NCBI GenBank assembly: GCA_016841825.1
Contig: JAENYK010000002.1
Location: 124,001 to 188,000 of the forward strand
Direction: 5' to 3'
Length of the DNA: 64,000 nt
Source: Halothermothrix sp.
GTDB lineage: Bacteria > Bacillota > Halanaerobiia > DY22613
The notes beneath the pieces are model-generated. The model was not told the DNA's origin. It ran no database searches and saw nothing but the letters and a program-made list of their open reading frames with translations. The first letter of the stretch is position 1, and each line of letters starts with the position of its first letter. The position numbers were made by a program, and so were the translations under genes. Positions 6,239 to 60,355 of the stretch are shown here, piece after piece.

Positions 6239-6274
6239 CTACCTTTGATTTTACTTAAAGAGAGGGAGATAAAT

Positions 6275-22885: not shown

Positions 22886-23773
22886 ATGTATTCGAATACA
22901 CTCAAGAAAAAAGATAGAGCTGGTCTCTTAATCAGAGAAAATCAAAAGCTATTTAAATGTCCCGTATGTGGTGAGAAGATGGCGATGAATGACTCTGGTA
23001 GTTTGATCTGTGATTCCAGACATTGTTTTGATTTATCTAAAAATGGTTATCTGAACTTATTAGTATCTGCTAATAAGGCTTCATATTCTAAAGAATTGTT
23101 TGAAGCAAGGCATATACTTTGTGAAAATGGTTTTTATGATCCATTAATTGATGAGATAAATAAAATAATTTATAGATACGTAGAATCCATAGATGCAAAA
23201 GAATTGACTATTGTTGACGCCGGATGTGGTGAGGGGTCTCACCTTTATAAGTTGTCGCAAAAAGATAGGAGAGATATAGCATACAGTCTCTTTGGGATTG
23301 ATATCTCAAAAGATAGTATTAATATCGCTGCACGCAGCCAGAGTGACATTATCTGGTGTGTGGCAGATTTAGCGAGACTGCCTTTCACAGATGAGAGTTT
23401 TGATGTTATTTTAAACATATTATCTCCGGCGAATTATGCAGAATTTACAAGAATAGTAACTGATTTAGGAATTGTAATTAAGGTAGTCCCGGGGCGATTA
23501 TACCTTAAAGAATTAAGAGATGCAATTTATCGTGGTAGAGAAGGTGGAAGTTATTCCAATGACAAAGTGGTAGATTATTTTATGAAGAATTTAAAAGTTG
23601 TATCTGTTCAAGATGTAATGTACGAATTTAGTTTTGATAAAGGACTTTTACCACATCTGATTAATATGACACCTTTAACCTGGGGTGAGAGGATAGATAA
23701 TTTGCAGATCATGGAAGAAGATGTTTCATCTATCACTGTGGATTTAACTATAATTGTGGGCAGAAAGAGTTAA
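22886..23773 (+). CDS. 23S rRNA (guanine-N1)-methyltransferase, RlmA family
   Basis: 295-residue SAM-dependent methyltransferase of the RlmA-I/RlmA-II (TlrB) family, which methylates G745 or G748 of 23S rRNA. The N-terminal zinc finger is intact: Cys25, Cys28, Cys42 and His46, with the typical R-H-C-F-D-L-S-K-N-G-Y-L-N-L-L following. SAM motif I is V-D-A-G-C-G-E-G-S near residue 107 and the catalytic-region block is N-I-L-S-P-A-N-Y. GAGGTGAATTGAGG lies upstream. A perfect palindrome TGATGAATTCATCA (22759-22772) precedes the gene. Which guanine is modified cannot be told; some members give macrolide/tylosin tolerance. Confidence 0.85.
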   Translation: MYSNTLKKKDRAGLLIRENQKLFKCPVCGEKMAMNDSGSLICDSRHCFDLSKNGYLNLLVSANKASYSKELFEARHILCENGFYDPLIDEINKIIYRYVESIDAKELTIVDAGCGEGSHLYKLSQKDRRDIAYSLFGIDISKDSINIAARSQSDIIWCVADLARLPFTDESFDVILNILSPANYAEFTRIVTDLGIVIKVVPGRLYLKELRDAIYRGREGGSYSNDKVVDYFMKNLKVVSVQDVMYEFSFDKGLLPHLINMTPLTWGERIDNLQIMEEDVSSITVDLTIIVGRKS

Positions 23774-23852
23774 AGTTCCTTGAGTTTTCTCATAAATATA
23801 GGCAGAATGAGGATAATGATCTAATAGTGTGGTTGTGTAAATTTACCCTATT

Positions 23853-23895
23853 AATCAAAGAGAGTAAGTCTAACAGGCTTACTCTCTTTGATTTG
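23853..23895. terminator. strong terminator after the rRNA methyltransferase
   Basis: Perfect 16-base stem AATCAAAGAGAGTAAG (23853-23868) with 23878-23893 and a 9-base loop. A-T rich ends let it work in both directions. It insulates the sigma-54 operon that follows. Confidence 0.8.
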
Positions 23896-23901
23896 AGCTG
23901 A

Positions 23902-24003
23902 GCAGCAAAATGGAAAAGAGCAGTAATTGGAACAATCTTTATCATGGTGGTGCTGCTAACTGTATTGATATTTTACAAATGGATCATTGTAAAACCGTGT
24001 TAG
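23902..24003 (+). pseudogene. remnant coding for a hydrophobic segment
   Basis: A 33-codon open stretch beginning right after an in-frame TGA, without a usable start at its head, ending in TAG. It encodes one convincing membrane helix (I-F-I-M-V-V-L-L-T-V-L-I-F-Y) with basic flanks. Probably a decayed gene or a very short membrane peptide from an internal ATG at 23944. Confidence 0.25.
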
Positions 24004-24026
24004 AATTTGTGAGAAATCCGACGTAA

Positions 24027-24045
24027 TGTGAGAATATTTATCACA
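24027..24045. promoter_or_regulatory. inverted repeat upstream of the sigma-54 promoter, candidate activator site
   Basis: TGTGA-N9-TCACA, about 95-115 bases upstream of the -24 element. This is the usual distance and symmetry for an upstream activator site bound by a sigma-54 enhancer-binding protein. AGAAATTTCT at 24053-24062 is a second palindrome. The assignment is an inference from position. Confidence 0.45.
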
Positions 24046-24139
24046 AAACGTTAGAAATTTCTCTTTTACCGAAGATTCAAGCAGAAAGATTGATAAAGAA
24101 ATATCACCATTTATCAGATAAATTAGACAATAAAAAATT

Positions 24140-24156
24140 TTGGCACGGATTTTGCT
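24140..24156 (+). promoter_or_regulatory. sigma-54 (-24/-12) promoter
   Basis: TTGGCACGGATTTTGCT: the GG (24142-24143) and GC (24154-24155) are exactly 10 bases apart and match the consensus TGGCACG-N4-TTGCW at every fixed position. Transcription should start near 24167, 87 bases before the TRAP binding-protein gene. A sigma-54 activator gene lies at the end of the same gene run (31946-33355). Confidence 0.9.
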
Positions 24157-24253
24157 TTATTAATTATCGAACAGTAAAATTCTCTATAATCGATATTCGG
24201 TTTAGCATTCTGGACTGGATATCTGGGAGGACAAAATTTAAGGAGGTAGACAA

Positions 24254-25228
24254 ATGAAAAAGTTTTCAAGCGTTTTCATCATCACTCTGGTAGCTGTATT
24301 ATGTCTGAGTTTCTCAATTTCAGCAGCAAGAACTTTGAAAGTAGGACATGTACTAGCACCAAGCCATCCCTACCAATATGGTCTGGAAAAGTTTGCTCAA
24401 TTAGTTGAGGAAAAAACTGGTGGCAGTATTGTTGTTAAAGTATTCCATAGTTCTCAGTTAGGTGGAGAGCGAGAGATGATTGAAGCTCTTCAATTTGGTA
24501 CTCTGGATATGACTCTGGTTTCCACCGCACCATTAGCAGGATTTTTGCCACAGTTTCAGGTTTTTGATTTGCCATTCATCTTTGGAGACAGGGAACAGGC
24601 ATACAAAGTATTGGACAATCAGATTGGGCAGGATCTATTGGAAAAATTAGAGCCCAAAGGAATTATTGGTCTGACTTATTGGGAGAATGGATTCCGTCAT
24701 GTGACAAATTCTAAACGTCCTATCGTAACTCCTGAAGATTTGTCAGGTCTAAAGATTCGTTTAATGGAGAATCCAGTCCATCAAGATAGCTTTAGAGCTA
24801 TGGGTGCACTACCTACTCCTATGGCCTTTGGTGAACTTTTCACTGCTTTGCAGCAACATACAGTTGATGGTCAGGAGAATCCACTGGCGATTATTGAGAC
24901 TTCTAAGTTCTATGAAGTTCAAAAATACTTATCCACTACTGGTCATTTTTATGCCGCTTCTCCATTACTGGTTAGTAAGATCGTCTGGAAAAAGTTAAGT
25001 GCTGAAGAACAGCAGGCAATTCAGGAAGCTGCGATAGAAGCTCGTGATTATGAAAGAAGCCTGATCATTCAGATGGACAATGAGTTATTGGAGACAATGA
25101 AAGAAAATGGTATGGAAGTAACTATCGTTGATAAATCTCTCTTTAGAGAGGCAACTAAATCAGTTTATGAAAAATATGAAAAAGTTATAGGAAAAGATCT
25201 TTTAGAGGCAGTACTAAACTCAAAATAG
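24254..25228 (+). CDS. dctP: TRAP transporter substrate-binding protein, DctP family (system 1)
   Basis: 324-residue periplasmic binding protein delivering an organic acid to a TRAP transporter. Signal peptide at residues 1-24 ending S-I-S-A-A. The substrate-carboxylate Arg is Arg169 in G-L-K-I-R-L-M; the core F-D-L-P-F-I-F and G-E-L-F-T-A-L-Q-Q blocks are typical. AAGGAGG precedes the ATG. First gene after the sigma-54 promoter. The ligand is likely a monocarboxylate or hydroxy acid; the downstream LarA homologue makes a 2-hydroxy acid attractive, but this is inference. Confidence 0.92.
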   Translation: MKKFSSVFIITLVAVLCLSFSISAARTLKVGHVLAPSHPYQYGLEKFAQLVEEKTGGSIVVKVFHSSQLGGEREMIEALQFGTLDMTLVSTAPLAGFLPQFQVFDLPFIFGDREQAYKVLDNQIGQDLLEKLEPKGIIGLTYWENGFRHVTNSKRPIVTPEDLSGLKIRLMENPVHQDSFRAMGALPTPMAFGELFTALQQHTVDGQENPLAIIETSKFYEVQKYLSTTGHFYAASPLLVSKIVWKKLSAEEQQAIQEAAIEARDYERSLIIQMDNELLETMKENGMEVTIVDKSLFREATKSVYEKYEKVIGKDLLEAVLNSK

Positions 25229-25244
25229 GCAAACTTACCTTAGA

Positions 25245-25268
25245 GAGGGATGGAACTAACCATCCCTC
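25245..25268 (+). other. intercistronic hairpin between dctP and dctQ (system 1)
   Basis: GAGGGATGG (25245-25253) pairs with CCATCCCTC (25260-25268), loop of 6. No T-run follows, so it is probably an mRNA-stabilising or partial-attenuation hairpin raising binding-protein output over permease, a common arrangement in TRAP and ABC operons. Confidence 0.6.
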
Positions 25269-25300
25269 CAGATTATCATAATCAGAAGGGAGATTCAAGC

Positions 25301-25849
25301 ATGGAATTTATCAAAAAGCATTTTGCCAGACTAGAAGAATATCTAGTTATGATTCTTTTAACGATTATGTCTTTTTTGGTTATCTGGCAAGTTATTGCCC
25401 GGTTTATTCTCAAAGCTCCCCTCTCCTGGACTGAGGAATCGGCTAGATATCTGATGGTCTGGCTAACTTTTCTTGGTGCAAGTATTGGAGTTAAACAGGG
25501 AGCCCATATTGGAGTTACAGCATTTTTGCAGATTTTGCCACAAAAGGTTCGTAAGGTTGGGCTTCTCTTTGGTAACCTGGTCGCTCTGGTCTTTGTGGTA
25601 GTTATTTGTATATATGGTTTTAAAGTTGTATCTATTCAGCGAATGATGGGCCAGCTCTCCCCCGCTCTACAGATTCCTATGTGGTGGTCATATTTAGGAA
25701 TCCCCGTAGGTGGTATCTTTATTTTCATTCGCCTGGCTCAAAATGCCTGGAGTAATTTTATTACTGATGAGATTAGTTTTGAATCAACTGAAGTAAAAGA
25801 TGCTCTCGATCTGGCGAAGGAGACTATGAAACAGGGAGGTCAAAACTGA
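25301..25849 (+). CDS. dctQ: TRAP transporter small permease DctQ (system 1)
   Basis: 182-residue membrane protein with four helices (about 15-37, 50-68, 90-112, 132-152). The motif P-L-S-W-T-E-E-S-A-R-Y with a W-L-T-F-L-G-A helix and L-Q-I-P-M-W-W are hallmarks of DctQ. The ATG at 25301 with AAGGGAG upstream is chosen over an in-frame start 51 bases earlier that would lie in the intercistronic hairpin. Its stop codon overlaps the ATG of the large permease (TGATG). Confidence 0.9.
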   Translation: MEFIKKHFARLEEYLVMILLTIMSFLVIWQVIARFILKAPLSWTEESARYLMVWLTFLGASIGVKQGAHIGVTAFLQILPQKVRKVGLLFGNLVALVFVVVICIYGFKVVSIQRMMGQLSPALQIPMWWSYLGIPVGGIFIFIRLAQNAWSNFITDEISFESTEVKDALDLAKETMKQGGQN

Positions 25850-27120
25850 TGGCAACCTTACTATTTGGATCTTTTGTTTTTCTATTATTATTTAATGTTC
25901 CAATTGCGTTTTGTTTAGGTATGGCTGCTGTTGTAACTTTGTGTTTGCTCAGCGGTGTACCATTAATGGTTGTACCACAAAAAATGTTTAATGCTATTGA
26001 TTCTTTTCCATTGATGGCGATTCCATTTTTTATGCTAGCTGGTTCGCTGATGCAGAATGGAGGAATTTCCCGGCGCTTAATTAATCTGGCGAAAAATATT
26101 GTCGGTTCAGTATCTGGTGGATTGGCGATGGTTGTGGTAATTACCAGTATGTTTTTTGCCGCAATCTCGGGTTCTGGTCCTTCCACTGTTGCGGCTATGG
26201 GTTCGATTTTGATCCCTGCGATGATTAAAGAAAAATATGATAAAGGATTTGCCGCTGCTATTCAGGCTGCATCTGGTTCATTGGGGGTAATTATCCCACC
26301 CAGTATCACAATGATCACTTATGGTGTGGTCACGGGAAGTTCGATTGGTGATCTTTTCCTTGGTGGATTTGGAGCCGGATTAATCTATGGTGGATTAATT
26401 TTGCTTACAGCCTATGTGATCTCCCGCATCAAAGGATATCATGGTTCAGATAAAGCTTCCTTCAAAGAGGCCTGGGGTTCTGCTAAAGATGCTATTTGGG
26501 CGATCCTGATGCCATTCATTATTCTCGGTGGAATTTATGCGGGAATTTTTACCCCAACTGAAGCCGCAGCCATAGCTGTGTTGTATGGTTTTATTGTGGG
26601 AATGTTTATTTATAAAGATTTAAAATGGGCTGATTTACCAAAGGTCTTAATTGATTCTGCTAAGTCTACTTCTGTAGTTATGTTAATTATCTCTACCGCC
26701 ACTGTATTTGGTTGGTTGTTAACATCTGAACAGATTCCGGAAGCTATTGCACAAGGATTTTTGGCTGTATCCTCCAGTCCAGTAATTATTCTGTTGTTGA
26801 TCAATATTCTTTTATTGTTTGTTGGATGTTTTATCGAAACAAATGCAGCAATTATTATTTTAGCTCCAATTCTATTACCTGTTGTTACTAAGATTGGGGT
26901 AGATCCTGTACATTTTGGCTTAATTATGATTGTGAACACTGCTATGGGTATGATAACGCCCCCGTTGGGAGTTAACCTCTTTGTGGCGTGCGGAATCTCA
27001 GGAGTGTCACTGGAGCGAATTTCTAAGGCAGCGATTCCTTTTGTTATTGTCTTAATTCTTGCAACACTGATGATTACCTTTGTACCGGCAATAACTATGT
27101 TTCTGCCCAGGCTCTTTTAA
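25849..27120 (+). CDS. dctM: TRAP transporter large permease DctM (system 1)
   Basis: 423-residue, roughly 12-helix membrane protein that carries out Na+-coupled transport of the substrate presented by DctP. Typical DctM blocks: I-P-F-F-M-L-A-G, F-F-A-A-I-S-G-S-G-P-S-T-V-A-A, I-I-P-P-S, F-T-P-T-E-A-A-A and T-P-P-L-G-V-N-L. Translationally coupled to dctQ. Same length as the DctM of system 2 but clearly diverged, so the two systems probably differ in substrate. Confidence 0.94.
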   Translation: MATLLFGSFVFLLLFNVPIAFCLGMAAVVTLCLLSGVPLMVVPQKMFNAIDSFPLMAIPFFMLAGSLMQNGGISRRLINLAKNIVGSVSGGLAMVVVITSMFFAAISGSGPSTVAAMGSILIPAMIKEKYDKGFAAAIQAASGSLGVIIPPSITMITYGVVTGSSIGDLFLGGFGAGLIYGGLILLTAYVISRIKGYHGSDKASFKEAWGSAKDAIWAILMPFIILGGIYAGIFTPTEAAAIAVLYGFIVGMFIYKDLKWADLPKVLIDSAKSTSVVMLIISTATVFGWLLTSEQIPEAIAQGFLAVSSSPVIILLLINILLLFVGCFIETNAAIIILAPILLPVVTKIGVDPVHFGLIMIVNTAMGMITPPLGVNLFVACGISGVSLERISKAAIPFVIVLILATLMITFVPAITMFLPRLF

Positions 27121-27140
27121 GAGTTAGGAGGTGAATAATC

Positions 27141-28379
27141 ATGCTACCAAAATTAGCACTTGTTAAACAGAATTTTACTAATGATCGGATTACTGATATC
27201 ACAGCAGCAATCACCGGGGAATTGTCCAGAATTAAGCTGGCAGAGATGATTAAGCCAGGTGCGAAGATTGGTGTAGTTACTGGGAGTAGAGGAATCCATG
27301 CCATCGAAGAGATGGTGACAGCAATTGTTAAAGAAGTAAAAGACCTGGGTGGTCAACCTATTGTGATTCCCGGAATGGGGAGTCATGGTGGTGCTACTGC
27401 AGAAGGTCAGGTTAAGGTTTTGAAAAGTCTTGGAATAACTGAAGAGACAGTTGGAGCTCCGATAATATCGTCAATGAAAGTTGAGGTATTAGGTAGTACT
27501 GCCAATGGTGCTCCCGTATATTTTGATCGAAATGCTATGCAGTGTGATGGAATTATCATCATTAATCGTATCAAACCGCATACAGATTTCCGTGGTGCCT
27601 ATGAAAGTGGACTGATGAAAATGTTGGCAGTAGGTCTGGGTAAACATGCCGGTTGTAGTACTATGCATCGCTATGGTCTTGGTCAGACGATTCCTGATGC
27701 AGCGAAAATTATCTTACAAAAAGCTCCTCTTCTTTGCGGAATTGGGGTGATTGAAAACGCACTGGATAAACCAATACTCATCGAGGCAGTGTGTCCACAG
27801 GATTTTGAATCCAGAGAACCTGAGTTATTAAAAATTGCCAAAGGATACTTACCACAGATTCCTTTTGACAAGTTGGATCTGTTGGTGGTCTATGAGATGG
27901 GCAAGAACATTAGTGGTACGGGTATGGATACCAATGTTCTTGGACGATTTAAAATTGCGGGAGTAGAAGAACCTGAGCGTCCACTGATAAAGAAGGTGGG
28001 AGTATTGCGCCTTAACGATAAATCTTATGGTAATGCACTGGGGGTTGGTTTAGCTGATTTGACCACTAAGGAGTTATACGACAGTATCGACTTTGAAGTA
28101 ATGTATGCCAATCTTATTCCCACTTCCTATTTGGAGAGGGGTAAGATTCCGGTTGTTCTGCCCACAGATCGAGCTCTCGTGGAGGCAGGATTGAAAACTA
28201 TCGGGCCAGTCAAACCAGAGAATGCCCGGGTAGTGGTGATTAAAAATACTCTGGAATTGAGTAGAATTTATGTATCAGAAGCTCTCATATCGGAAGTACA
28301 GGCAAATTCGTCTTTAGTATTGGAGACAGATTTTACAGATTGGCCATTTGTTAATGATTCTTTACAACTTGAGTTATAG
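27141..28379 (+). CDS. LarA-like nickel-pincer racemase/epimerase homologue 1 (DUF2088)
   Basis: 412-residue cytoplasmic protein of the lactate racemase LarA superfamily, which uses a nickel-pincer nucleotide to racemise or epimerise 2-hydroxy acids. Catalytic-type residues visible: His82 in M-G-S-H-G-G, His147 in R-I-K-P-H-T-D, and Lys160/His176, 16 residues apart exactly as Lys184/His200 that hold the cofactor in Lactobacillus LarA. Further conserved block G-K-N-I-S-G-T-G-M-D-T-N near residue 255. AGGAGGTG precedes the ATG, 20 bases after dctM. Genes making the cofactor (larB, larC, larE) are not in the window. Substrate unknown: lactate, malate or sugar acids are known for relatives. Confidence 0.8.
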   Translation: MLPKLALVKQNFTNDRITDITAAITGELSRIKLAEMIKPGAKIGVVTGSRGIHAIEEMVTAIVKEVKDLGGQPIVIPGMGSHGGATAEGQVKVLKSLGITEETVGAPIISSMKVEVLGSTANGAPVYFDRNAMQCDGIIIINRIKPHTDFRGAYESGLMKMLAVGLGKHAGCSTMHRYGLGQTIPDAAKIILQKAPLLCGIGVIENALDKPILIEAVCPQDFESREPELLKIAKGYLPQIPFDKLDLLVVYEMGKNISGTGMDTNVLGRFKIAGVEEPERPLIKKVGVLRLNDKSYGNALGVGLADLTTKELYDSIDFEVMYANLIPTSYLERGKIPVVLPTDRALVEAGLKTIGPVKPENARVVVIKNTLELSRIYVSEALISEVQANSSLVLETDFTDWPFVNDSLQLEL

Positions 28380-28393
28380 GAGGTAGATGATCC

Positions 28394-28774
28394 ATGAGGT
28401 TAATGCATACAAGTTTGCCTGAGTTTAAATTAAAGATGCAAGGGGCAGTTTTAAAAGCTTCATCGAATAAGAAACTGGAGATTCGCGGCCTGGAAAATCT
28501 GAAATCTGCCAAGATGCAGTCCCTTAGAACAGGTCGAATTGAGAATGCTGTTGAGAGTATATCTCAGGAGAAAACTGTTAGTCGGGTAGAAGTGGTAATT
28601 ATGCCGCGGGTTCCTGAAACGATGCACACAGTAATTGTCAAAGGGTATGATACAGATAATCAACCTCAAAAAGCAGTATTAGAAGTGATTAATATTATCC
28701 ATCCAACTGAAGAAGTAGAACTGGACGGTTTTATGGAGATTGACGACCGTCGTCCAGTAATCGGTAAACACTAG
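28394..28774 (+). CDS. 126-residue protein of unknown function in the sigma-54 island
   Basis: I do not recognise this protein. It is small, soluble, without signal peptide or Cys, and looks beta-rich: residues 45-110 alternate strands such as S-R-V-E-V-V-I-M-P-R and M-H-T-V-I-V-K-G-Y, then A-V-L-E-V-I-N-I-I and a charged E-E-V-E-L-D-G-F. It begins 14 bases after the LarA homologue with GGAGG before the ATG, and 13 bases before the next gene, so it is firmly inside the operon. Position suggests a subunit or partner of the following 341-residue protein. Confidence 0.75.
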   Translation: MRLMHTSLPEFKLKMQGAVLKASSNKKLEIRGLENLKSAKMQSLRTGRIENAVESISQEKTVSRVEVVIMPRVPETMHTVIVKGYDTDNQPQKAVLEVINIIHPTEEVELDGFMEIDDRRPVIGKH

Positions 28775-28787
28775 GAGGTGACCAACA

Positions 28788-29813
28788 ATGAAAAAACTAC
28801 CCTTTCGCCTGATGAAAAAAGGAATTGGGGCAAAACATGGTGCTCCGATTAATGTAGCATTTGTAGATATACAGGACATTTTGGAGAATGGTCTTACCGA
28901 AACAGAAGCCCTGGATGCCATTGCCAGTTATATGAATGCTCCGACAGCTATTAATCTATTCAATATGGATGCAATCACAACTACCAGTGATGGCGTTCTG
29001 GTCGAAAGTGCAATTACAACTATGGCTGCTGCTGATAAGGGACGGGTACACAAAGAGTTTGGAACTTTGCGGATGAAGCAGATTGAGATTGATGATGAAC
29101 TTATCTCTTTGGAGCCACATTTGAAGCAGATTAAAGCTCTGGGGTTAGAAAGTAGACCCTTGTTTAGAGGTCCGGACCCCAAAGATAAACTAATTCCAGT
29201 TCACAATGTGGTAATGACCGGAGCTGCCATTAACAATAATTCGGCAACCGAGATTATGAATGCCATCACTATGGAAGAGATGTTACTTCCATATCTGGGT
29301 CAGAAACAGATCATGGAAGATGGCGAGATTCTTTTCGGTGTTACAGGAGAGGTAATTTCGGTCGGTATCGGGATGACTGTTGCAGAAAAATATGGACGAG
29401 TTTTTCCAACCCGCCAATTTAAAGCGGGAGAAACTGCTCACGGTTCAGGCGAATATGCGAAAACTTTGAAAGCAAATATTCCCTGTGTAGTAGCGCCTAA
29501 AGAAGTGCTGGCCAAATATACAGTAGCTGCATTAGAAGCTGGAATGATCCCGGGACGGGAGATTGGCTGCTCACCGGCTGTATTGAGTCTGGCTCATGCA
29601 CTGGGCAAGGAGATTGATTTCGAGCGGATTCAGCCTGCTGCCTGGGCAGAACTTAATAGTGTGGGAATCACGGAGAGTCAATTGCTCACACCTTCGCCAA
29701 AAATGAGTGTTGAAGAAGCCATTCAATCGGCAGAAAAGATTATTCCCGGGGTGAAGAATCCACAACGAGTCAAATCCACTGATGTAATTGAAAAGATTAC
29801 AATTAGTGTTTAA
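28788..29813 (+). CDS. 341-residue protein of unknown function in the sigma-54 island
   Basis: I cannot assign a family. Soluble, no signal peptide, no membrane helix. Notable blocks: G-I-G-A-K-H-G-A-P near the N-terminus, M-T-G-A-A-I-N-N-N-S-A-T near residue 147, F-G-V-T-G-E-V-I-S-V-G-I-G-M near 184, the motif G-E-T-A-H-G-S-G-E-Y around 215 and C-V-V-A-P then G-R-E-I-G-C-S-P-A near 230-265. The glycine-rich turns with His, Glu and two Cys look like an enzyme active site rather than a structural protein. I considered the proline/glycine reductase proteins and saw no convincing match. AGGAGGTG lies before the ATG. Confidence 0.75.
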   Translation: MKKLPFRLMKKGIGAKHGAPINVAFVDIQDILENGLTETEALDAIASYMNAPTAINLFNMDAITTTSDGVLVESAITTMAAADKGRVHKEFGTLRMKQIEIDDELISLEPHLKQIKALGLESRPLFRGPDPKDKLIPVHNVVMTGAAINNNSATEIMNAITMEEMLLPYLGQKQIMEDGEILFGVTGEVISVGIGMTVAEKYGRVFPTRQFKAGETAHGSGEYAKTLKANIPCVVAPKEVLAKYTVAALEAGMIPGREIGCSPAVLSLAHALGKEIDFERIQPAAWAELNSVGITESQLLTPSPKMSVEEAIQSAEKIIPGVKNPQRVKSTDVIEKITISV

Positions 29814-29846
29814 CGACATTTCATAAGGGAAGTCTCCCGTGGAGTA

Positions 29847-29889
29847 CGACTGTTTACTTCATGGGGGTACATATCCCCTTCTGAAGTCG
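29847..29889 (+). other. intercistronic hairpin
   Basis: In the 157-base gap after the 341-residue protein, ACTTCA (29856-29861) pairs with TGAAGT (29882-29887) around GGGG/CCCC (29863-29866 with 29875-29878). No T-run follows; it may set relative expression or protect mRNA ends. Confidence 0.45.
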
Positions 29890-29970
29890 ATAAATTGAAG
29901 GCATTAATAGGCCTACTGTTAATGTGACTTTAACTTTATAAAATAGATAATCAATGAAGGGTGGTTTATC

Positions 29971-30318
29971 ATGGAACATGTTATTGCCTATGCTGATAAA
30001 ACTGTTTTGAAAATTGATGGAATAGCTGTCAAAGGTCTAAAACCTGAAGAATTGGAAGCCCAATTATTTGTTCTATTTCAACGTCCTGTTCGATTGATTG
30101 GTGTGACCAGTAACTCTCTGGAGATGGATATTTATAATTTAGAACCTGAGCAGATTTTAAGTAATGAAAAAGGAATTATTACCGCAATCTCGACAGTTCC
30201 TGGATTAACCGCCACAGAGGTTACACAGATTGTGCAAGCTGAAAAAGCGAAAGAGGTGACTGCCGATCAGATCATACCTGGGTCTGGAAATGGTTGTGCG
30301 AGGGAGAGGTGGCTTTAA
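29971..30318 (+). CDS. 115-residue protein of unknown function in the sigma-54 island
   Basis: Not recognised. The first half is compatible with a small alpha/beta or PDZ-like fold (V-L-K-I-D-G-I-A-V-K-G-L-K-P-E-E-L then R-P-V-R-L-I-G-V-T), followed by a helical region and a C-terminus G-S-G-N-G-C-A-R-E-R with one Cys. No signal peptide. GGGTGG precedes the ATG. It ends one base before the start of the molybdopterin-binding-like gene, so the two are translated together and may interact. Confidence 0.7.
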   Translation: MEHVIAYADKTVLKIDGIAVKGLKPEELEAQLFVLFQRPVRLIGVTSNSLEMDIYNLEPEQILSNEKGIITAISTVPGLTATEVTQIVQAEKAKEVTADQIIPGSGNGCARERWL

Positions 30319-30319
30319 A

Positions 30320-30850
30320 ATGCGTAAGATCTTGATTTTACCAACCGGGGATGAGGTGTTCTCTGGTATTATCCTGGATACAAATAGTCCCAAGATTATG
30401 GCTAAGATCCTGGAAGACTATCCCGCAGCACAGATCACCCGGGCTACACCTTTAAAAGATCGTCAGGCAGAGATTCTCAACGCTTTACAGATTGGAGTGG
30501 AAGCTGGGAATGATCTGATCATCACTATCGGAGGATCGGGCGGAGGTGGGAAATATTCTCATTCTCTGGCACCAGATTACACTCATGAAGCTATTTTGCA
30601 ATTAGCACCTGATGCGGCTAGAATTTCCATCTTCGGGTATAATGGTCATTTGTGGTCTAAAATCGTCGTGGGGAAAGTCGAGCAGACTTTAATAATCACC
30701 TTGCCTGGTCCACAAGTAGAGGCTTTGGCAGGTTTATCTGCAGGAATTGAGAAGATTCAAGCCGGGAATGATGTGCAAAGGATCTGTCAGGCGATGGCTT
30801 CTGCAGTGTTGGCTCAATACCCCAGAGGAGGTCATTGCCAATGCAGTTAG
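30320..30850 (+). CDS. MoCF-like (MogA/MoeA-fold) small protein
   Basis: 176-residue soluble protein with the look of a molybdopterin-binding (MoCF_biosynth) domain: L-P-T-G-D-E-V at residues 7-13, G-I-I-L-D-T-N-S-P at 16-24, I-T-R-A-T-P-L-K-D near 39-47, and D-L-I-I-T-I-G-G-S-G-G-G-G at 65-77, then V-E-Q-T-L-I-I-T-L-P-G-P near 120. In MoeA/MogA the corresponding loops hold molybdopterin, but the usual D-x-T-P/E motif after the Gly loop is not clear here, so the ligand may differ. The ATG at 30320 has GAGAGGTGG upstream. No molybdoenzyme is nearby, which makes its role here open. Confidence 0.65.
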   Translation: MRKILILPTGDEVFSGIILDTNSPKIMAKILEDYPAAQITRATPLKDRQAEILNALQIGVEAGNDLIITIGGSGGGGKYSHSLAPDYTHEAILQLAPDAARISIFGYNGHLWSKIVVGKVEQTLIITLPGPQVEALAGLSAGIEKIQAGNDVQRICQAMASAVLAQYPRGGHCQCS

Positions 30851-31347
30851 GAGTTATGGTAATTACAGAAAACGATTTTGGATCTATAGAGGAAATGAAG
30901 ATGATTGAGTGGATTGAACAGGAATTTTTCCCGCTTTTCAAGTTGAAAGAGCGTCGGTTCTGTAGGGATGATGTGTATGATATTACCAATGATATTCAGG
31001 GTTTTGCTCAGGTAGATGTGATTATTATTATAGCTGACTTGAGTTTGAAAAAACTGGAACATACTGTCCAGACGATCCGTTCCTGTTTACATTCCCGAAT
31101 TCAGCCTCTGGAAGAGGCGATGAAATTTGCCTTGTTAATGAAGAGTGGACCTTTATCGGCATTAAATACAACAGTGGCAGGATTGAGAGATCAGACCCAT
31201 GTTTTTGCAATTCCAAAAAACTTTGTGGAAATACAGACACTAATTAGTACTATTGTAAAACCATATTTGCTTAACCATGTTTTTTTTGATAAAATTAGAT
31301 TAAGACCACTAGAAATGCTAAAGGAGTATCTAGAAAGTGAAAAATGA
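30841..31347 (+). CDS. degenerate MogA-like protein
   Basis: 168-residue soluble protein overlapping the previous gene by 10 bases. Its start (L-G-V-M-V-I-T-E-N-D) and end (S-A-L-N-T-T-V-A-G-L-R-D-Q-T-H-V-F-A-I-P) recall the first strand and the S-R-x-x-A-G-x-R...L-P-G region of MogA/MoaB, but the glycine-rich nucleotide loop is replaced by V-I-I-I-I-A-D-L-S-L. I therefore read it as a diverged relative that may pair with the preceding protein. The ATG at 30841 with GAGGAGG 9 bases upstream is chosen over a TTG two codons earlier. Confidence 0.6.
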   Translation: MQLGVMVITENDFGSIEEMKMIEWIEQEFFPLFKLKERRFCRDDVYDITNDIQGFAQVDVIIIIADLSLKKLEHTVQTIRSCLHSRIQPLEEAMKFALLMKSGPLSALNTTVAGLRDQTHVFAIPKNFVEIQTLISTIVKPYLLNHVFFDKIRLRPLEMLKEYLESEK

Positions 31348-31939
31348 ACTATATCCTTTTATCAAAGAGGCAATAACTAGTACTGGAGAATCTGTTTTGC
31401 TAATTGGTTGTGGAATTGGACCAGTAGCAGAGTTCGTTGCTGAGCTAACTACCAGGTTTGCTCAGTGGTCGGTTCCATTGGAGACCAGAGACGAGCCTTT
31501 TCTGCTGGATTTTTATCTGGCCCGGGAATTGAAGCGAGATGTTCCGGAGCAGGTGATCGTTTTGGGAGCAACTATCAAAGCAGAACTCTCACATGGTTGT
31601 TCAGGTGGAGTAATCGGAGATCCGCATATGGAATCCCGTTCTATCAACCTCTACACAGAGGTTTTACGGGAAGGGCTCTGTCTGGCTGGATTACCTGGAG
31701 GGCCAGGACTAGTTTTTTTGGGGCAGGAAGCAGATGGGGTAGTTTTAATGGAGATTGCAGAAAAATTGGATCGCAAAAATGGTGGGCAGATTTTACGTCG
31801 ACTCGCCGAAGAAGCTGTTGAGCTTGGTATCTCCTTTCTTCTTGGTGTTGCTGATGGATCAGGCGACCGGGAGGGGGCAGTTCTCTTAATGGATGGAGCA
31901 CGGATAGAGGTCTTACAATTCCTTAAAGAGAAAGGTTGA
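31337..31939 (+). CDS. 200-residue protein of unknown function in the sigma-54 island
   Basis: Not recognised. It begins with a GTG inside the end of the preceding gene (11-base overlap) after AAGGAG. Soluble; glycine-rich blocks are V-L-L-I-G-C-G-I-G-P near residue 21, E-L-S-H-G-C-S-G-G-V-I-G-D-P-H near 85 and L-A-G-L-P-G-G-P-G-L-V-F near 115. The Cys/His/Asp cluster in the middle block could bind a metal or nucleotide. The G-L-P-G-G-P segment recalls the L-P-G turn of the MogA fold, so a third divergent member is possible but unproven. Confidence 0.68.
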   Translation: MKNELYPFIKEAITSTGESVLLIGCGIGPVAEFVAELTTRFAQWSVPLETRDEPFLLDFYLARELKRDVPEQVIVLGATIKAELSHGCSGGVIGDPHMESRSINLYTEVLREGLCLAGLPGGPGLVFLGQEADGVVLMEIAEKLDRKNGGQILRRLAEEAVELGISFLLGVADGSGDREGAVLLMDGARIEVLQFLKEKG

Positions 31940-31945
31940 TTCCTC

Positions 31946-33355
31946 ATGAAAGATGAGCACATTAATTCCCCGACACATTTAATTCTGAATCAGATCATTC
32001 AAAATTTGAAAGAAGGCGTAAATGTTGTTAATTTAAAAGGTGAGATAATCTATGCTAATGCAACTTCAGCCCGTTATGCCAATACCACTGTGGATAATAT
32101 GTTGGGAAAACATGTCACAGAATTTTATCCCAAAGCGGCGTTAGTCGAGGTATTGGAGTCTCGTGAACCGATTTTGAATAGTCCAACAGACCATCCGGAT
32201 GGTCGATATTATGTGGTGGATGCGTATCCGCTAATTCTGGATGGTCAGTTTAAGGGTGGATTTGCTATCTTTCGAGATATTACAGATATAAAGATTATGA
32301 ACTCAGAAATCTCCCAACTGCGGTCAAAATTAATTCGCAAATCTTCGATTATCTTTGATCAGTTGATTGGGTATGATGGTAGTTTGAAAGAGGTTGTTAA
32401 AAAAGCGGGTAAAACTATTGGCTCTCTGGGAGGGCCACGTCATTGTATGATTCTTGGTCAGACTGGTACTGGGAAGACTTATCTGGCCAAACTGATGTAT
32501 CAATTTGCCAAAGATACGGGAGTGCTGGACGCAGATGCTCCGTTTATTGAAGTTAACTGTGCTCAATTTACAAATCCGGATGTGGCAGCTTCGGAAATTT
32601 TTGGCTGTTCTAAAGGTGCGTTTACAGGTGCCACGGATAAAAGTGGATTGATTGAAGCTGCTGACCATGGAATTCTCTTTTTGGACGAGGCCCATGCGTT
32701 AGCAGAATATCAAAACTTACTGTTGAAAGTTATTGATGAACAGAAAGTTAGGAGAATTGGTAGTCGAATAGAGAAGAAAGTTAATGTAATCATCATCACT
32801 GCATCTACTCAGAACTTACAGGATAAATTTTTGCCAGAGTTATATCAACGTCTTGCCCAATATCAACTACATTTACCGACTCTGGCAGAGCGACCTTATA
32901 GTGAAAAAGAACAACTTTTGCATTTGTTCAAGGTTAATTATAAGAAAGCTGCGCTGCAAAATTATGGACTAGACCTGGAGATTATTTTTGAACCAGAGGT
33001 GCGGGAGATGTTGCTGCAAACCAACTATTCCAGAAATGTTCGGCATTTTAAAGACGTAGTCAATGCTACAATTGATGCGGCAACTCCCTTGATTCATAAT
33101 TTGCAGAGTAAAAAACTTGTAACCTATGTCAAATTGGAACATTTACCCGAAGGGATTTTGACAAAACAGTCTGAACCTATAGCTAAGAAGATCTGGCGAA
33201 AAGAAGATAACAAAGAAGAACTGAATAAGTTAATTCGGGATTTTCGAAAAAAAGGTTTTGGTGCACGGAAAATAGCTTCCCGTTTACAGGAGATAGGTCT
33301 GGATATACAGTATTATCATGTGGCCTATATCTTAAAAAAGATGGAGGCTGAATAA
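31946..33355 (+). CDS. sigma-54-dependent activator with PAS sensor and AAA+ domain
   Basis: 469-residue enhancer-binding protein. PAS domain at residues 12-115 (I-I-Y-A-N-A-T-S-A-R-Y), AAA+ domain about 135-380 with Walker A G-Q-T-G-T-G-K-T (171-178), the sigma-54 contact loop G-A-F-T-G-A (224-229) and Walker B I-L-F-L-D-E-A-H (243-250). The C-terminus (435-469) is not the usual Fis helix-turn-helix but a G-A-R-K-I-A-S-R-L-Q-E-I-G resolvase-like one. The intact G-A-F-T-G-A means it should activate sigma-54 promoters; the consensus one at 24140 is the obvious target. The PAS domain probably senses the pathway substrate. Confidence 0.92.
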   Translation: MKDEHINSPTHLILNQIIQNLKEGVNVVNLKGEIIYANATSARYANTTVDNMLGKHVTEFYPKAALVEVLESREPILNSPTDHPDGRYYVVDAYPLILDGQFKGGFAIFRDITDIKIMNSEISQLRSKLIRKSSIIFDQLIGYDGSLKEVVKKAGKTIGSLGGPRHCMILGQTGTGKTYLAKLMYQFAKDTGVLDADAPFIEVNCAQFTNPDVAASEIFGCSKGAFTGATDKSGLIEAADHGILFLDEAHALAEYQNLLLKVIDEQKVRRIGSRIEKKVNVIIITASTQNLQDKFLPELYQRLAQYQLHLPTLAERPYSEKEQLLHLFKVNYKKAALQNYGLDLEIIFEPEVREMLLQTNYSRNVRHFKDVVNATIDAATPLIHNLQSKKLVTYVKLEHLPEGILTKQSEPIAKKIWRKEDNKEELNKLIRDFRKKGFGARKIASRLQEIGLDIQYYHVAYILKKMEAE

Positions 33356-33386
33356 CAGATCATGATGTCATCTGGAGATATAGGCT

Positions 33387-33414
33387 GAAAATATTGCACT
33401 TTGTGCAATATTTC
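33387..33414 (+). terminator. terminator-like hairpin after the activator gene
   Basis: AATATTGCAC (33390-33399) pairs perfectly with GTGCAATATT (33403-33412) around three bases, followed by a short T-rich run. GC-poor, so possibly leaky into the oxidoreductase genes. Confidence 0.5.
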
Positions 33415-33427
33415 TTAAAGGTGAAAT

Positions 33428-33441
33428 AGTTGTCAACAACT
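33428..33441. promoter_or_regulatory. palindrome AGTTGTCAACAACT, copy 1
   Basis: Perfect 14-base palindrome 237 bases before the oxidoreductase gamma gene. The same palindrome occurs at 36811-36824 ahead of TRAP system 2. The form and size suit a FadR-type GntR regulator such as the one at 43117. Confidence 0.6.
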
Positions 33442-33487
33442 CGAAGCTGTGAAAGGGATATTCCTAATTTTTCTAGAAAAACTGAAT

Positions 33488-33597
33488 GAAGAAATTTTAG
33501 TGAAACAACCTGAGCTTCTGATCACAAAGATCTGTGAAAAGAAGATATCCAGTATTATCATGTGGCATATATCTTAAAAAAGATGAAAGCTGAGTAA
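33488..33597 (+). pseudogene. decayed duplicate of the activator gene's 3' end
   Basis: The translation of 33488-33540 (E-E-I-L-V-K-Q-P-E-L) matches activator residues near 408 (E-G-I-L-T-K-Q-S-E-P), and after a frameshift 33541-33597 matches the last 18 residues (D-I-Q-Y-Y-H-V-A-Y-I-L-K-K-M) with two changes, ending in TAA. The intervening roughly 30 codons are missing. The bases after the stop (33598-33663) also resemble those after the real stop (33356-33427), so the copied unit extended into the intergenic region. Confidence 0.75.
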
Positions 33598-33677
33598 TAA
33601 ATTATAATGATAACTGGAGAAAAGCTGAGGGTATTAAACGTTGGACAAATTTCTTAATAGTGAAAGGAGGAAAATAT

Positions 33678-34253
33678 ATGGCTCAATTACTGGAAATTCG
33701 TTGGCATGGCCGCGGCGGACAGGGTTCCAAAACGGCATCTATTTTGTTAGGTAAAGCGTGTTCAGAAGCGGGCAAGTTCATTCAAGCTTTTCCTGAATAC
33801 GGTCCTGAACGGATGGGAGCACCAGTCATTGCCTACAACCGCATTAGTGATCAACAGGTTTCGGTTCACTGTCAGATTGAAGAGCCGGACCTGGTGGTGG
33901 TCTTAGATCCCACTTTAATCGCCACCATTGATGTAGCAGAAGGGTTAAAAGCAGATGGAAAGATTATTGTGAATACAGAAATGCCAGCTAGCAAGATGAA
34001 GGAAAAATTAGGATATGCTGGTGAGGTGTACACACTGGATGCCAATGGGATCTCAGAGCAGGAATTAGGCAAAGCCTTCCCAAATACACCAATGTTGGGG
34101 GCTGTGGTAAAGGTAACTAACATGTTTTCCATGGAAGAATTTATGGAGTTGATCAAAAAAGAGTTTGCTGCTAAGTTTGCTCATAAACCTGAAGTGATTG
34201 CAGGAAATTTACAGTGTATTAAAAGGTCTTTTGAGGAGGTGAAGAGCGAATAA
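33678..34253 (+). CDS. porC: 2-oxoacid:ferredoxin oxidoreductase, gamma subunit
   Basis: 191-residue subunit of the four-subunit pyruvate (or 2-ketoisovalerate):ferredoxin oxidoreductase. Typical start L-L-E-I-R-W-H-G-R-G-G-Q-G and the G-P-E-R-M-G-A-P-V block around residue 47. The ATG at 33678 has AAAGGAGG 7 bases upstream; an in-frame GTG 18 bases before is less likely. Its stop overlaps the next ATG (TAATG). The subunit order gamma-delta-alpha-beta is the usual one for this enzyme in anaerobes. Confidence 0.93.
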   Translation: MAQLLEIRWHGRGGQGSKTASILLGKACSEAGKFIQAFPEYGPERMGAPVIAYNRISDQQVSVHCQIEEPDLVVVLDPTLIATIDVAEGLKADGKIIVNTEMPASKMKEKLGYAGEVYTLDANGISEQELGKAFPNTPMLGAVVKVTNMFSMEEFMELIKKEFAAKFAHKPEVIAGNLQCIKRSFEEVKSE

Positions 34254-34570
34254 TGGGAGATTCAGTTAAAAAACCTGGTTGGAAAGATATCCCCATCGGG
34301 GGACGGATTGAAGATGCAGGTAATTCACAGAAATACTATGTTGGGGGCTGGAGAACACGTCGTCCGGTCTGGATAAAAGAGAATTGTATCCATTGTTTGT
34401 TCTGTTGGGTAGCCTGTCCGGATGCAGCTATTGTAGTTGAAGATGGAAAAATTCAGGGTTTCGACTATGACCATTGTAAAGGTTGTGGAATCTGTGCCAG
34501 AGAATGTCCAGCAAAAAGTCCTGCGATACAGATGAGATCCGAAAATATAGAAGATCAATTTGACAGTTAG
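34253..34570 (+). CDS. porD: 2-oxoacid:ferredoxin oxidoreductase, delta subunit (2x[4Fe-4S])
   Basis: 105-residue ferredoxin-like subunit passing electrons to ferredoxin. Two cluster motifs are complete: C-I-H-C-L-F-C-W-V-A-C-P (residues about 47-58) and C-K-G-C-G-I-C-A-R-E-C-P (about 78-89). Translationally coupled to the gamma gene and 17 bases before alpha. Confidence 0.94.
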   Translation: MGDSVKKPGWKDIPIGGRIEDAGNSQKYYVGGWRTRRPVWIKENCIHCLFCWVACPDAAIVVEDGKIQGFDYDHCKGCGICARECPAKSPAIQMRSENIEDQFDS

Positions 34571-34587
34571 AGGAAGGGGGAAAAACA

Positions 34588-35769
34588 ATGGGAAATAGAA
34601 TAGCCCTGACCGGGAATGAAGCGGTAGCATTGGGAATGAAACAGATTGCCCCAGATGTGGTAGCTGCTTATCCGATCACACCACAGACTGAAGTTGTGCA
34701 GATTTTTTCTCAGTATGTGGCAGATGGTGATGTAGATACAGAATTTGTGACAGTTGAGAGTGAGCATAGTGCTATGAGTGCTGCTTTAGGTGCATCTGCA
34801 GCAGGAGCACGGGCGATGACGGCTACTTCATCTAATGGTTTAGAGTTGATGTTTGAGGTGGTGAACATCACTGCTTCGCTGCGTTTACCTATCGTGATGC
34901 CAATTGTTAATCGGGCGATTACTGGACCAATTAACATTCATTGTGACCATAGTGATGTGATGACTATTCGTGATAGTAGTTGGATTTTGCTCTTTGGAGA
35001 AAATGCCCAGGAAGCGTACGATAACCTGTTAATGGCCAATCGAATCGCTGAGCATTCAGATATTTTGCTGCCAGTGGCGGTGAATATGGATGGGTTCATT
35101 ATCTCTCACGCTGTTGAGAATATTGAGATTGTGGAAGATGAAGTCGTCAAGGAATTTGTTGGTGATTACTACCCAGAAAAGTATTTGCTTGATGCGGCAA
35201 ATCCGATTACAATGGGTCCGGTGGACTTACAGGATTATCTTTTTGAGCATAAACGTCAACAGATTGAAGCGATCAAAAAAGTTTCCGGGGTTGTTCGACA
35301 AGTGAGTCAGGAGTTCGCTGAGTTGACAGGTCGCCACTATGATCTTTTTGAAGAATATAGACTGGATGATGCTGAGGTGGCTCTGATAGCTATCGGTTCT
35401 ACTGCCGGAACTGCCAAAGCGGCGATTGATAATCTGCGGGAGCAGGGTATTAAGGTTGGTCTCTTAAAGATAAGACTATATCGTCCTTTCCCGGCAAAAG
35501 AGATTGTGGAAGCTCTCAAGGGAGTAAAAACTATTGGAGTTATGGATCGGGCTGAATCTTATAGTAATACCGGTGGGCCTCTGTATGCCGATATTCGTGC
35601 TGCCATGTATGATGTAGGCGGAACAGCTCAGGTAATGAATATAGTATATGGGATTGGTGGTCGCGACATGACTGTCCGGGATCTGGAGAACCTGATTACG
35701 CAGCTTCAAAAGGTGACAGAAACTGGAGAGATAGAGGAAAGAATCATCCATTATGGAGTACGGGATTAG
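34588..35769 (+). CDS. porA: 2-oxoacid:ferredoxin oxidoreductase, alpha subunit
   Basis: 393-residue subunit carrying the pyrimidine-binding part of the thiamine-diphosphate site. Typical blocks: G-N-E-A-V-A-L-G, A-A-Y-P-I-T-P-Q-T near residue 30, T-V-E-S-E-H-S-A-M-S-A near 55 and T-A-T-S-S-N-G-L near 73. Length is normal. GGAAGGGGG precedes the ATG. The S-S-N-G-L form (where many pyruvate enzymes read S-S-P-G-L) leaves the exact 2-oxoacid open. Confidence 0.94.
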   Translation: MGNRIALTGNEAVALGMKQIAPDVVAAYPITPQTEVVQIFSQYVADGDVDTEFVTVESEHSAMSAALGASAAGARAMTATSSNGLELMFEVVNITASLRLPIVMPIVNRAITGPINIHCDHSDVMTIRDSSWILLFGENAQEAYDNLLMANRIAEHSDILLPVAVNMDGFIISHAVENIEIVEDEVVKEFVGDYYPEKYLLDAANPITMGPVDLQDYLFEHKRQQIEAIKKVSGVVRQVSQEFAELTGRHYDLFEEYRLDDAEVALIAIGSTAGTAKAAIDNLREQGIKVGLLKIRLYRPFPAKEIVEALKGVKTIGVMDRAESYSNTGGPLYADIRAAMYDVGGTAQVMNIVYGIGGRDMTVRDLENLITQLQKVTETGEIEERIIHYGVRD

Positions 35770-35780
35770 GAGGTGGATTA

Positions 35781-36719
35781 ATGGCAACTTTAAAAGAACT
35801 AGCAACACGTGATGGTAAGTTTTGTGGAGGTCATCGATTGTGTCCCGGTTGTGGAGCGGGAATCGTTACCCGTCAGGTATTGGCTGCAGCCAAAGACAAT
35901 GTAGTAGTAGGTTGTGCCACTGGCTGTCTGGAAGTATCGACAACCATTTATCCCTATACAGCTTGGAATACCTCCTTTATTCATAATGCTTTTGAGAATG
36001 CTGCTGCTACCACATCCGGAGTTGAAGCGGCATATCGGGCATTGAAAAAACGGAAGAAGTTTGGACTCGAAGATAGCAAGTACAACTTTATTGCTTTCGG
36101 CGGCGATGGTGGAACATATGATATTGGTTTTCAGTCTCTTTCAGGTGCTATGGAGAGAGGACATCGGATGCTCTATGTCTGTTATGACAACGGCGCATAT
36201 ATGAACACCGGTATTCAACGATCTTCAGCTACTCCATTGGGAGCTGATACGACTACCAGTCCTGCCGGGAAAGAGATTCCGGGTAAAGTACAGTATCGTA
36301 AGGAATTAACTGATATAATTGCAGCTCATTATATTCCTTATGTAGCCCAGGCGTCTCCATCTAATTGGAAGGATTTGACCAGAAAGGTTGAGAAGGCATT
36401 ATCTATTGATGGGCCATCTTTTATCAACATTATCTCTGCCTGTCCACGTGGTTGGCGGATTCCAGAAGATCAGGGATTAGAGTTACATAGAATTGCAATT
36501 GATTCCTGCTTCTGGCCGTTGTTTGAAATAGAGGACGGTGTGAAATACACTATCAACTACAAACCTAAAACTAAGCGTCCGGTTGAGGATTGGTTAAAAC
36601 CGCAGGGTAGATTTAAGCATCTGTTTAAACCAGAGAATCGTTATCTGATTGCGGAAGAGCAAAAGCGGATTGATGAGAGATGGGAGATGCTTTTAAGACG
36701 TGCCGGAGAGCTTGATTAA
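35781..36719 (+). CDS. porB: 2-oxoacid:ferredoxin oxidoreductase, beta subunit
   Basis: 312-residue thiamine-diphosphate- and [4Fe-4S]-binding subunit. Cluster ligands: L-C-P-G-C-G-A-G near residue 21 (two Cys), a third Cys in V-G-C-A-T-G-C near 52 and a fourth in I-S-A-C-P-R-G-W near 216. Thiamine-diphosphate motif G-G-D-G-G-T-Y-D-I-G near 108 ending in Y-D-N-G-A-Y-M-N-T-G. Complete. A terminator follows, ending the gene run that began at the sigma-54 promoter or at a promoter after the activator gene. Confidence 0.95.
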   Translation: MATLKELATRDGKFCGGHRLCPGCGAGIVTRQVLAAAKDNVVVGCATGCLEVSTTIYPYTAWNTSFIHNAFENAAATTSGVEAAYRALKKRKKFGLEDSKYNFIAFGGDGGTYDIGFQSLSGAMERGHRMLYVCYDNGAYMNTGIQRSSATPLGADTTTSPAGKEIPGKVQYRKELTDIIAAHYIPYVAQASPSNWKDLTRKVEKALSIDGPSFINIISACPRGWRIPEDQGLELHRIAIDSCFWPLFEIEDGVKYTINYKPKTKRPVEDWLKPQGRFKHLFKPENRYLIAEEQKRIDERWEMLLRRAGELD

Positions 36720-36741
36720 AGTTTAATATCCAGATTATCTG

Positions 36742-36776
36742 AAAATGACTGGTCTATGAAGATCAGTCATTTTTAT
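36742..36776 (+). terminator. terminator of the oxidoreductase operon
   Basis: AAAATGACTGGTCT (36742-36755) pairs with AGATCAGTCATTTT (36760-36773), one G-T pair, 4-base loop, T-rich end. Confidence 0.85.
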
Positions 36777-36810
36777 ATCTAACACTCCTGAATAGATATG
36801 AAAATTAATT

Positions 36811-36875
36811 AGTTGTCAACAACTAGATACTTTGAGAGGAATATTCCTAATTTTCTAGAAAAACTGAATATAGAA
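36811..36875 (+). promoter_or_regulatory. palindrome copy 2 plus block shared with the activator-gene duplicate
   Basis: TAGTTGTCAACAACTA (36810-36825) is a perfect palindrome; its core also stands at 33428-33441. The next 50 bases (…ATATTCCTAATTTTCTAGAA…) match 33441-33490 with few changes, so the whole block of about 65 bases is duplicated. It sits 50-115 bases before the dctP gene of system 2 and is the likely control region of that operon. Confidence 0.65.
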
Positions 36876-36925
36876 ACAATAAATAAAATAAATAAAGAGC
36901 AAATTTTAAAAAAGGAGAGGATCGT

Positions 36926-37918
36926 ATGAAGAAGATTTTTGCTTTGTCCCTGGTTCTTTTAGTCTCTGTCTTTCTATCAGTATCTGTAGGTATGAGTCAG
37001 GTGGTTAGTGCGGATGGAACAATTGTGATGAAATTAGCTAATGCTAATCCTCCGGGTGATGTGAAAGACCTGGCAGCTCAAAAATTTGCAGAATTGGTTA
37101 ATGAAAAAACAGGTGGTAGAGTACAGATTAAGGTGTATTCTGGTGGACAATTAGGAGACTGGAGAGATACTATCGAAGGGCTTGGTCTGGGTATTGATGA
37201 GATTGTAATCGAAAGTTTGGGAACACTTCAGGCTTATTCCGATTATGCCAATATTGACGCAGTACCTTATCTGTATAACGATTATGAGCACTTTATGGGA
37301 GTATGGGATAGTTCACTTGGTGACAAAATACTCCAGAAGGTTGGGGATGCAGGTAACTTTAGTCTGTTTGGTCCAATGTATAGAGGAGTTAGGATAACCA
37401 CAAGTAAAAAGGAATTTAGTACTCTAGATGAGATAAAAGGGCTGAAGATTAGAGTTCCAAATATTCAGGTGTATGTAAAGACATGGGAAGCTCTGGGTGC
37501 AACCCCTACACCGGTAGCTTTAACTGAAACCTTTACTGCTCTGCAGCAGGGTACAGTTGATGCACAGGAAAACCCAATTATCGCTTCTTATAATTTCGGT
37601 TTTTATGATGTGGCACCTTATCTAATACTTACTAACCATGTTTATAGTACTGACCTGTTTATCTTTGATCGGGATTATTTCAATAGTTTACCTCAAGATA
37701 TTCAGGAAGCAATAAAAGAAGCTGCCAATGAAACAGCAACCTGGCGTAGTGAATATACCCTCGAGATTGAAAATGAATTTATTCAGAAATTTAAAGATCA
37801 AGGGGTAGAAGTTGTGCATCCTGACCTTATTCAAATTAGAAAACAGTTTGACGGTTTTGTAAATGATTATTTCCCCTACCTGGATCAATGGGTTGAAGAG
37901 ATTAAAGCAGTTAAATAA
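36926..37918 (+). CDS. dctP: TRAP transporter substrate-binding protein, DctP family (system 2)
   Basis: 330-residue periplasmic binding protein with a signal peptide ending near residue 29 (V-V-S-A-D). The carboxylate-binding Arg176 stands in G-L-K-I-R-V-P, with a second conserved Arg in Y-R-G-V-R near 153. Only loosely similar to the system 1 protein. AAAGGAGAGG lies before the ATG. Genes downstream (IlvD-type dehydratase, LarA homologue) point to a sugar acid or other hydroxy acid as ligand; inference. Confidence 0.92.
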   Translation: MKKIFALSLVLLVSVFLSVSVGMSQVVSADGTIVMKLANANPPGDVKDLAAQKFAELVNEKTGGRVQIKVYSGGQLGDWRDTIEGLGLGIDEIVIESLGTLQAYSDYANIDAVPYLYNDYEHFMGVWDSSLGDKILQKVGDAGNFSLFGPMYRGVRITTSKKEFSTLDEIKGLKIRVPNIQVYVKTWEALGATPTPVALTETFTALQQGTVDAQENPIIASYNFGFYDVAPYLILTNHVYSTDLFIFDRDYFNSLPQDIQEAIKEAANETATWRSEYTLEIENEFIQKFKDQGVEVVHPDLIQIRKQFDGFVNDYFPYLDQWVEEIKAVK

Positions 37919-60196: not shown

Positions 60197-60355
60197 ATGT
60201 ATGAATAGAATATTATTTTGGGGGTTTTTCTTAAAAAAGTCCATCGGTTGTATTCTGAGATGGATTTTTTTCTGTTCCTCAGAATGTCGCACAAATTATC
60301 AAAAAATCAAAGTCATCATCTGGTATTATTAAAACAAGGTATGGGAGGGGTATTG

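Follow-up and report, generated by a model that had tools for sequence, protein, structure and literature searches.

The window analysed here, a stretch of 64,000 nucleotides (64 kb) from the genome of a Halothermothrix species, contains a run of genes on the forward strand (24254–33355, about nine kb) that has the structure of a single operon. The run starts with a TRAP transporter: the solute-binding protein DctP (24254–25228; PF03480, E 9e-104), a small membrane subunit recognised by its place between DctP and the large subunit (25250–25849; orthologs at 47–50% in relatives), and the large membrane subunit, assigned from sequence and conserved order (25849–27120; orthologs at ~64% in relatives). 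It continues with a nickel-pincer (NPN)-dependent isomerase of group 22 of the LarA superfamily (27141–28379), which scores 515.2 bits against NF052515 (cut-off 400). Then come the conserved proteins p126 (28394–28774; 55–74% identity in all relatives) and p341 (28788–29813), the small conserved protein p115 (29971–30318), two proteins with a MoCF_biosynth domain (PF00994; 30290–30850 and 30835–31347), the second of which is a separate gene in none of the relatives compared, and the conserved protein p200 (31337–31939), which has counterparts of 25–31% identity at the same place in relatives. The last gene (31946–33355) codes for a sigma-54 activator, or enhancer-binding protein (EBP), with a PAS domain, an AAA+ domain bearing the GAFTGA loop, and a non-Fis HTH-like tail.

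The genes are separated by at most 21 nt or overlap, with the exception of 157 nt after p341; the gap immediately before the EBP gene is 6 nt. Neither promoters nor terminators within the operon exceeded the chance level in a scan against shuffled sequence (23 promoter-like matches for 23.1 expected). The one large gap is filled by a structured repeat of 152 bp (29814–29965), lying between p341 and p115, from a family of 80–150 bp elements with ~40 diverged copies in the genome. The Rfam scan of 23700–37000 gave nothing above the gathering score of any family, this repeat included. The repeat could weaken read-through towards the EBP gene.

Four proteins of the operon (28394–28774, 28788–29813, 29971–30318, and 31337–31939) match no Pfam or NCBIfam family and are conserved in Firmicutes. 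In p341, numerous positions are invariant, among them C233 and C261. The structural model of this protein has a pLDDT of 89; neither Foldseek nor VIA-align assigned it a confident fold, and its weak similarity to PrpF/DapF-type isomerases may be taken as a lead. A plasmid search using the operon gave no match. The operon is predicted to serve the uptake and conversion of a hydroxy-acid; a plausible guess at the substrate is a short-chain polyhydroxy acid or a 2-hydroxy acid. Members of the LarA superfamily act on 2-hydroxy acids (PMC7583248, PMC11770544), and a term search of these two papers yielded neither an activity nor a mode of regulation for group 22.

The sequence TTGGCACGGATTTTGCT at 24140–24156, on the same strand as the operon, had been put forward in a preliminary description as a perfect sigma-54 promoter. 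Direct reading confirms the sequence and its exact fit: GG at −24 (24142–24143) and GC at −12 (24154–24155) are at the right spacing, and the whole of the consensus TTGGCAY-N5-TTGCW is present. The expected start at ~24167 lies, as claimed, 87 nt before the ATG of DctP at 24254. This is the only exact match to the TTGGCACNNNNNTTGCT pattern in the window; the other four matches listed differ from it at two positions each, and matches overall are no more frequent than chance predicts. The complete genome (5.08 Mb) has four exact matches to the consensus, three of them intergenic and 5′ of a gene, and when the 250 bp before the start codon were shuffled 500 times, no site of equal quality arose. 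A genome devoid of rpoN would have spoken against the promoter; the gene was looked for and found on contig 25, as an intact ORF of 474 aa (PF04552, 209 bits) whose N-terminal part is Q-rich and which carries the RpoN box SRRTVAKYR (RRTVAKYR). We take 24140–24156 to be the promoter of the operon 24254–33355, and its use is predicted to depend on sigma-54.

The inverted repeat TGTGAGAATATTTATCACA (24027–24045), previously noted as standing at enhancer distance, is indeed present, but it makes up only two of about five half-sites. With up to one mismatch it occurs at 123 places in the genome (94 for the control), and because it is so unspecific on its own the analysis was turned to half-sites. 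Each of the eight upstream regions taken from relatives contains the 8-mer TGTTATAA, and a position weight matrix was built from these regions only, the window and the locus L080 (see following) being excluded from training. The leave-one-out scores of the relatives are partly circular, since every one of them contributed to the choice of the core. Over all 64 kb of the window, the matrix puts its top-scoring 64-bp cluster at 23997–24060 (score 25.9), a score reached by 1 of 1,000 shuffles of the intergenic region. The predicted upstream activating sequence (UAS) at 23998–24056 is composed of five TGTKAKAA-like half-sites: TGTTAGAA (23998–24005, forward), TGTGAGAA (24008–24015, forward), TGTGAGAA again (24027–24034, forward), TGTGATAA (24038–24045, reverse), and CGTTAGAA (24049–24056, forward), all one or two bases off the 8-mer of the relatives. 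Their centres are 140.5, 130.5, 111.5, 100.5, and 89.5 bp 5′ of the −24 element; neighbouring half-sites are thus about one turn of the helix, or a multiple of that, apart, and the array is helically phased.

The EBP was said to be the only activator in the window. It is the sole sigma-54 activator there, but an AraC-type regulator, judged by its sequence, is encoded at 60218–61225. The EBP is complete, with the PAS domain, the sigma-54 AAA+ domain (PF00158, E 5e-37, 127.5 bits; Walker A and B motifs and GAFTGA loop present), and a short C-terminal tail, and its AlphaFold model matches solved sigma-54 activators, the AAA+ fold matching NtrC1 and FleQ. A Fis-type HTH at the C-terminus is usual in EBPs but not required. 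In the tail, there is no match to it (PF02954, HTH_8) at E 5–10, and the matches to HTH_12 and RecX_HTH2 are all below threshold. The genome has 12 EBPs, of which this one is the most divergent, and the other eleven, all full-length, have C-termini that look Fis-like by eye; the tail thus apparently sets the EBP of the window apart from them. Nine of the twelve have a −24/−12 site 160–560 bp past their own stop codon, so that the usual layout in this genome is the EBP first and the target after, the reverse of what is found in the window. The 3′ end of the EBP gene and its trailer are duplicated in diverged form (33302–33426 and 33544–33665, 78% over ~125 bp).

Relatives of the cluster were sought with p341. 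A search of GTDB contigs with the single sequence gave nothing, and one with a four-sequence alignment gave 13 loci. No other copy was found in the class to which the genome of the window belongs, and distant Firmicutes were therefore used for comparison; three distant genomes of the phylum have orthologs at 51–53% identity. The whole operon, in the same order and with the EBP last, occurs at four loci (L060, L061, L062, and L064), of which L061 is the same locus as L069, from Thermosediminibacter litoriperuensis, and L064 is from Fonticella tunisiensis. In L068, from Clostridium luticellarii, the cluster is rearranged: the EBP precedes an oxidoreductase operon, which itself has a −24/−12 site in front. 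The EBP orthologs of relatives are 46–51% identical over the alignment. In another seven loci (L063, L065, L070, and L072–L075), the cluster lacks a neighbouring EBP, and some of these have GntR- or DeoR-like genes close by, as judged from sequence. Other neighbours in relatives are presumably OtnK/PdxA2-like genes, acting on four-carbon sugar acids (L063, L065), and LarB/LarC-like genes. An oxidoreductase is among the neighbours of the cluster in L067 (Clostridiaceae BL-3) and L068.

Promoters were compared by a single rule, the best TTGGCAY-N5-TTGCW match in 250 bp with GG and GC intact. Every one of the ten EBP-type promoters, that of the window among them, has a −24/−12 site with at most two mismatches; L067 is counted as EBP-type for its promoters and motif, although a search of its genome found no EBP ortholog. 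In the nine promoters of relatives, the site is always 53–74 bp 5′ of the start codon. Such a site is missing from all nine upstream regions that have no EBP-type arrangement next to them; two of these controls come from the window itself, from its oxidoreductase operon and its second TRAP operon. No significant half-site cluster was found in the EBP-less upstream regions. The sigma-54 promoters kept in L067 are at 6247 and 9532, along with the half-site motif. The strongest independent test comes from the genome of L070, where an EBP ortholog is encoded elsewhere, apart from the cluster (L080), and adjoins a divergent operon for a CoA-transferase and a transporter. The same half-site motif occurs between this EBP and the CoA-transferase operon (score 29.5, reached by 0 of 300 shuffles), and a sigma-54 site, TTGGCATACCGCTTGCT, faces that operon. 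The half-site motif goes with the EBP and not with the operon, and the position of this EBP beside an apparently unrelated operon (L080, 2572–2719) suggests target switching.

The pairing of promoter and local EBP proposed in the preliminary description is thus supported by phylogenetic footprinting, by a motif matrix built from other genomes, and by the EBP-less control clusters, and we give a probability of about 0.85 to the reading that the promoter at 24140–24156 is driven by the EBP encoded last in its own operon, through the array at 23998–24056. The PAS domain would sense a signal, which is probably the acid brought in by the transporter or something made from it; an oligomer of the EBP would then bind the phased half-sites, the DNA would loop over ~100 bp to the promoter, and ATP hydrolysis, acting through the GAFTGA loop, would open the complex of RNA polymerase and sigma-54. 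With 12 EBPs in the genome, another one might serve the promoter and the local EBP act elsewhere. This is very improbable: across genomes, the motif tracks the orthologs of the local EBP, even to an unrelated operon, and because most of the genome's EBPs own an adjacent −24/−12 site, the promoter is left to the local one. Slightly less probable still is that the inverted repeat is the site of another regulator, for example a CRP/FNR- or Rex-like one, and that a sigma-A promoter lies in 24060–24250. The arrangement TGTGA..TCACA does resemble a pair of CRP half-sites, and a 9/12 sigma-A-like match overlaps the promoter at 24140–24167. However, the half-sites of the repeat are 9 apart, against 6 in the CRP/FNR consensus, the sigma-A-like matches in the region are at chance level (4 for 3.0 expected), and the motif of the relatives accounts for the repeat together with its neighbouring half-sites.

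The pairing of promoter and EBP has a further consequence. Since the operon that the EBP would activate ends with the EBP gene itself, switching on the operon would raise the level of the activator, i.e., a positive feedback, and most likely the operon does drive the gene of its activator. We infer this from the gene order, and it is well supported by the anatomy: the genes stand close together, promoters and terminators inside the operon are no more frequent than chance allows, and the EBP gene closes the operon both in the window and in four relatives. Both co-transcription over 9 kb and the strength of the feedback are read from this arrangement and would follow from it. Without an activator, sigma-54 promoters are silent, their basal activity being close to nil. 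Thus, a loop in which the EBP had no other promoter could not start itself, and a low level of EBP from elsewhere would be needed; a source for this start-up was not found. Such a need would be answered if a sigma-A promoter, either a weak one inside the operon or a separate one, accounted for most of the EBP transcription, the pairing being right and the feedback of no meaningful size. Weak 9/12 matches do occur in the operon (e.g., 29924–29951 and 30595–30624), and the EBP of L080 is encoded apart from any such operon. Yet the promoter-like matches are as many as expected, just 6 nt precede the EBP gene, and four relatives also keep it last in the operon, so that we regard separate transcription as unlikely. 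A bolder extension of the positive-feedback reading, doubtful but a little more probable than separate transcription, is that EBPs of this group, with their non-Fis tail and phased arrays, form a mobile self-contained switch that sits at the end of the operon under its control, has no other promoter of its own, and would give all-or-none (bistable) expression of a catabolic pathway with a nickel isomerase that has so far not been described.

Elsewhere in the window, the oxidoreductase operon at 33660 and the second TRAP cluster were considered as further targets of the EBP and rejected, as neither has a sigma-54 site or a half-site cluster. Both are preceded by a 71-bp block (33424–33494 and 36807–36876, 86% identical) with the palindrome AGTTGTCAACAACT, which is likely the operator of the FCD/GntR regulator encoded at 43117–43842. 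A second group-22 nickel-pincer isomerase (41776–43089) adjoins an IlvD/Edd-type dehydratase (40056–41723) and the second TRAP system; this region may be a parallel pathway, one devoid of sigma-54 signals.

The analysis provides a defined regulator, motif, and promoter, as predicted from sequence, for an operon with at least four conserved family-less proteins and a group-22 isomerase. The ligand of the regulator could reveal the substrate of the operon. Clusters with and without the activator offer a natural comparison of the same genes, and the specificity of an EBP with an unusual DNA-binding tail is open to testing.

In Clostridiales, the control of catabolic operons by sigma-54 together with local EBPs of the one-component kind has been well documented, and 39 groups of such regulons have been defined, with UAS-promoter distances mostly of 100–250 bp and 65% of the EBPs controlling one operon (PMC6615313). 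The window resembles these regulons in its local EBP, its UAS before a promoter of the TTGGCAT-N5-TTGCT type, and its catabolic targets; it differs in that the UAS is ~90–140 bp before the −24 element and the C-terminal domain is not of the Fis type. Table 1 of the same work has no target group combining TRAP and nickel-pincer isomerase genes. Another close parallel is PrdR with the prd operon for proline reductase: PrdR too is a sigma-54 activator whose catabolic target operon is local, and its UAS, with TGT/ACA inverted repeats (PMC6615313), is similar to that of the window. PrdR is also the best NCBIfam match of the EBP (NF041552), but 194.8 bits is far below the curated cut-off of 795, and the identification was rejected; no prd-type NCBIfam match was found among the operon proteins scanned. 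Unlike the prd system, the window has other target genes and phased arrays of TGTTATAA-type half-sites, and its EBP gene closes the operon to which it belongs. With the clusters of LarA superfamily group 22, it shares an isomerase belonging to NF052515. In conclusion, the operon of the window is a new group within a known kind of switch, the catabolic operons controlled by sigma-54 and an EBP.
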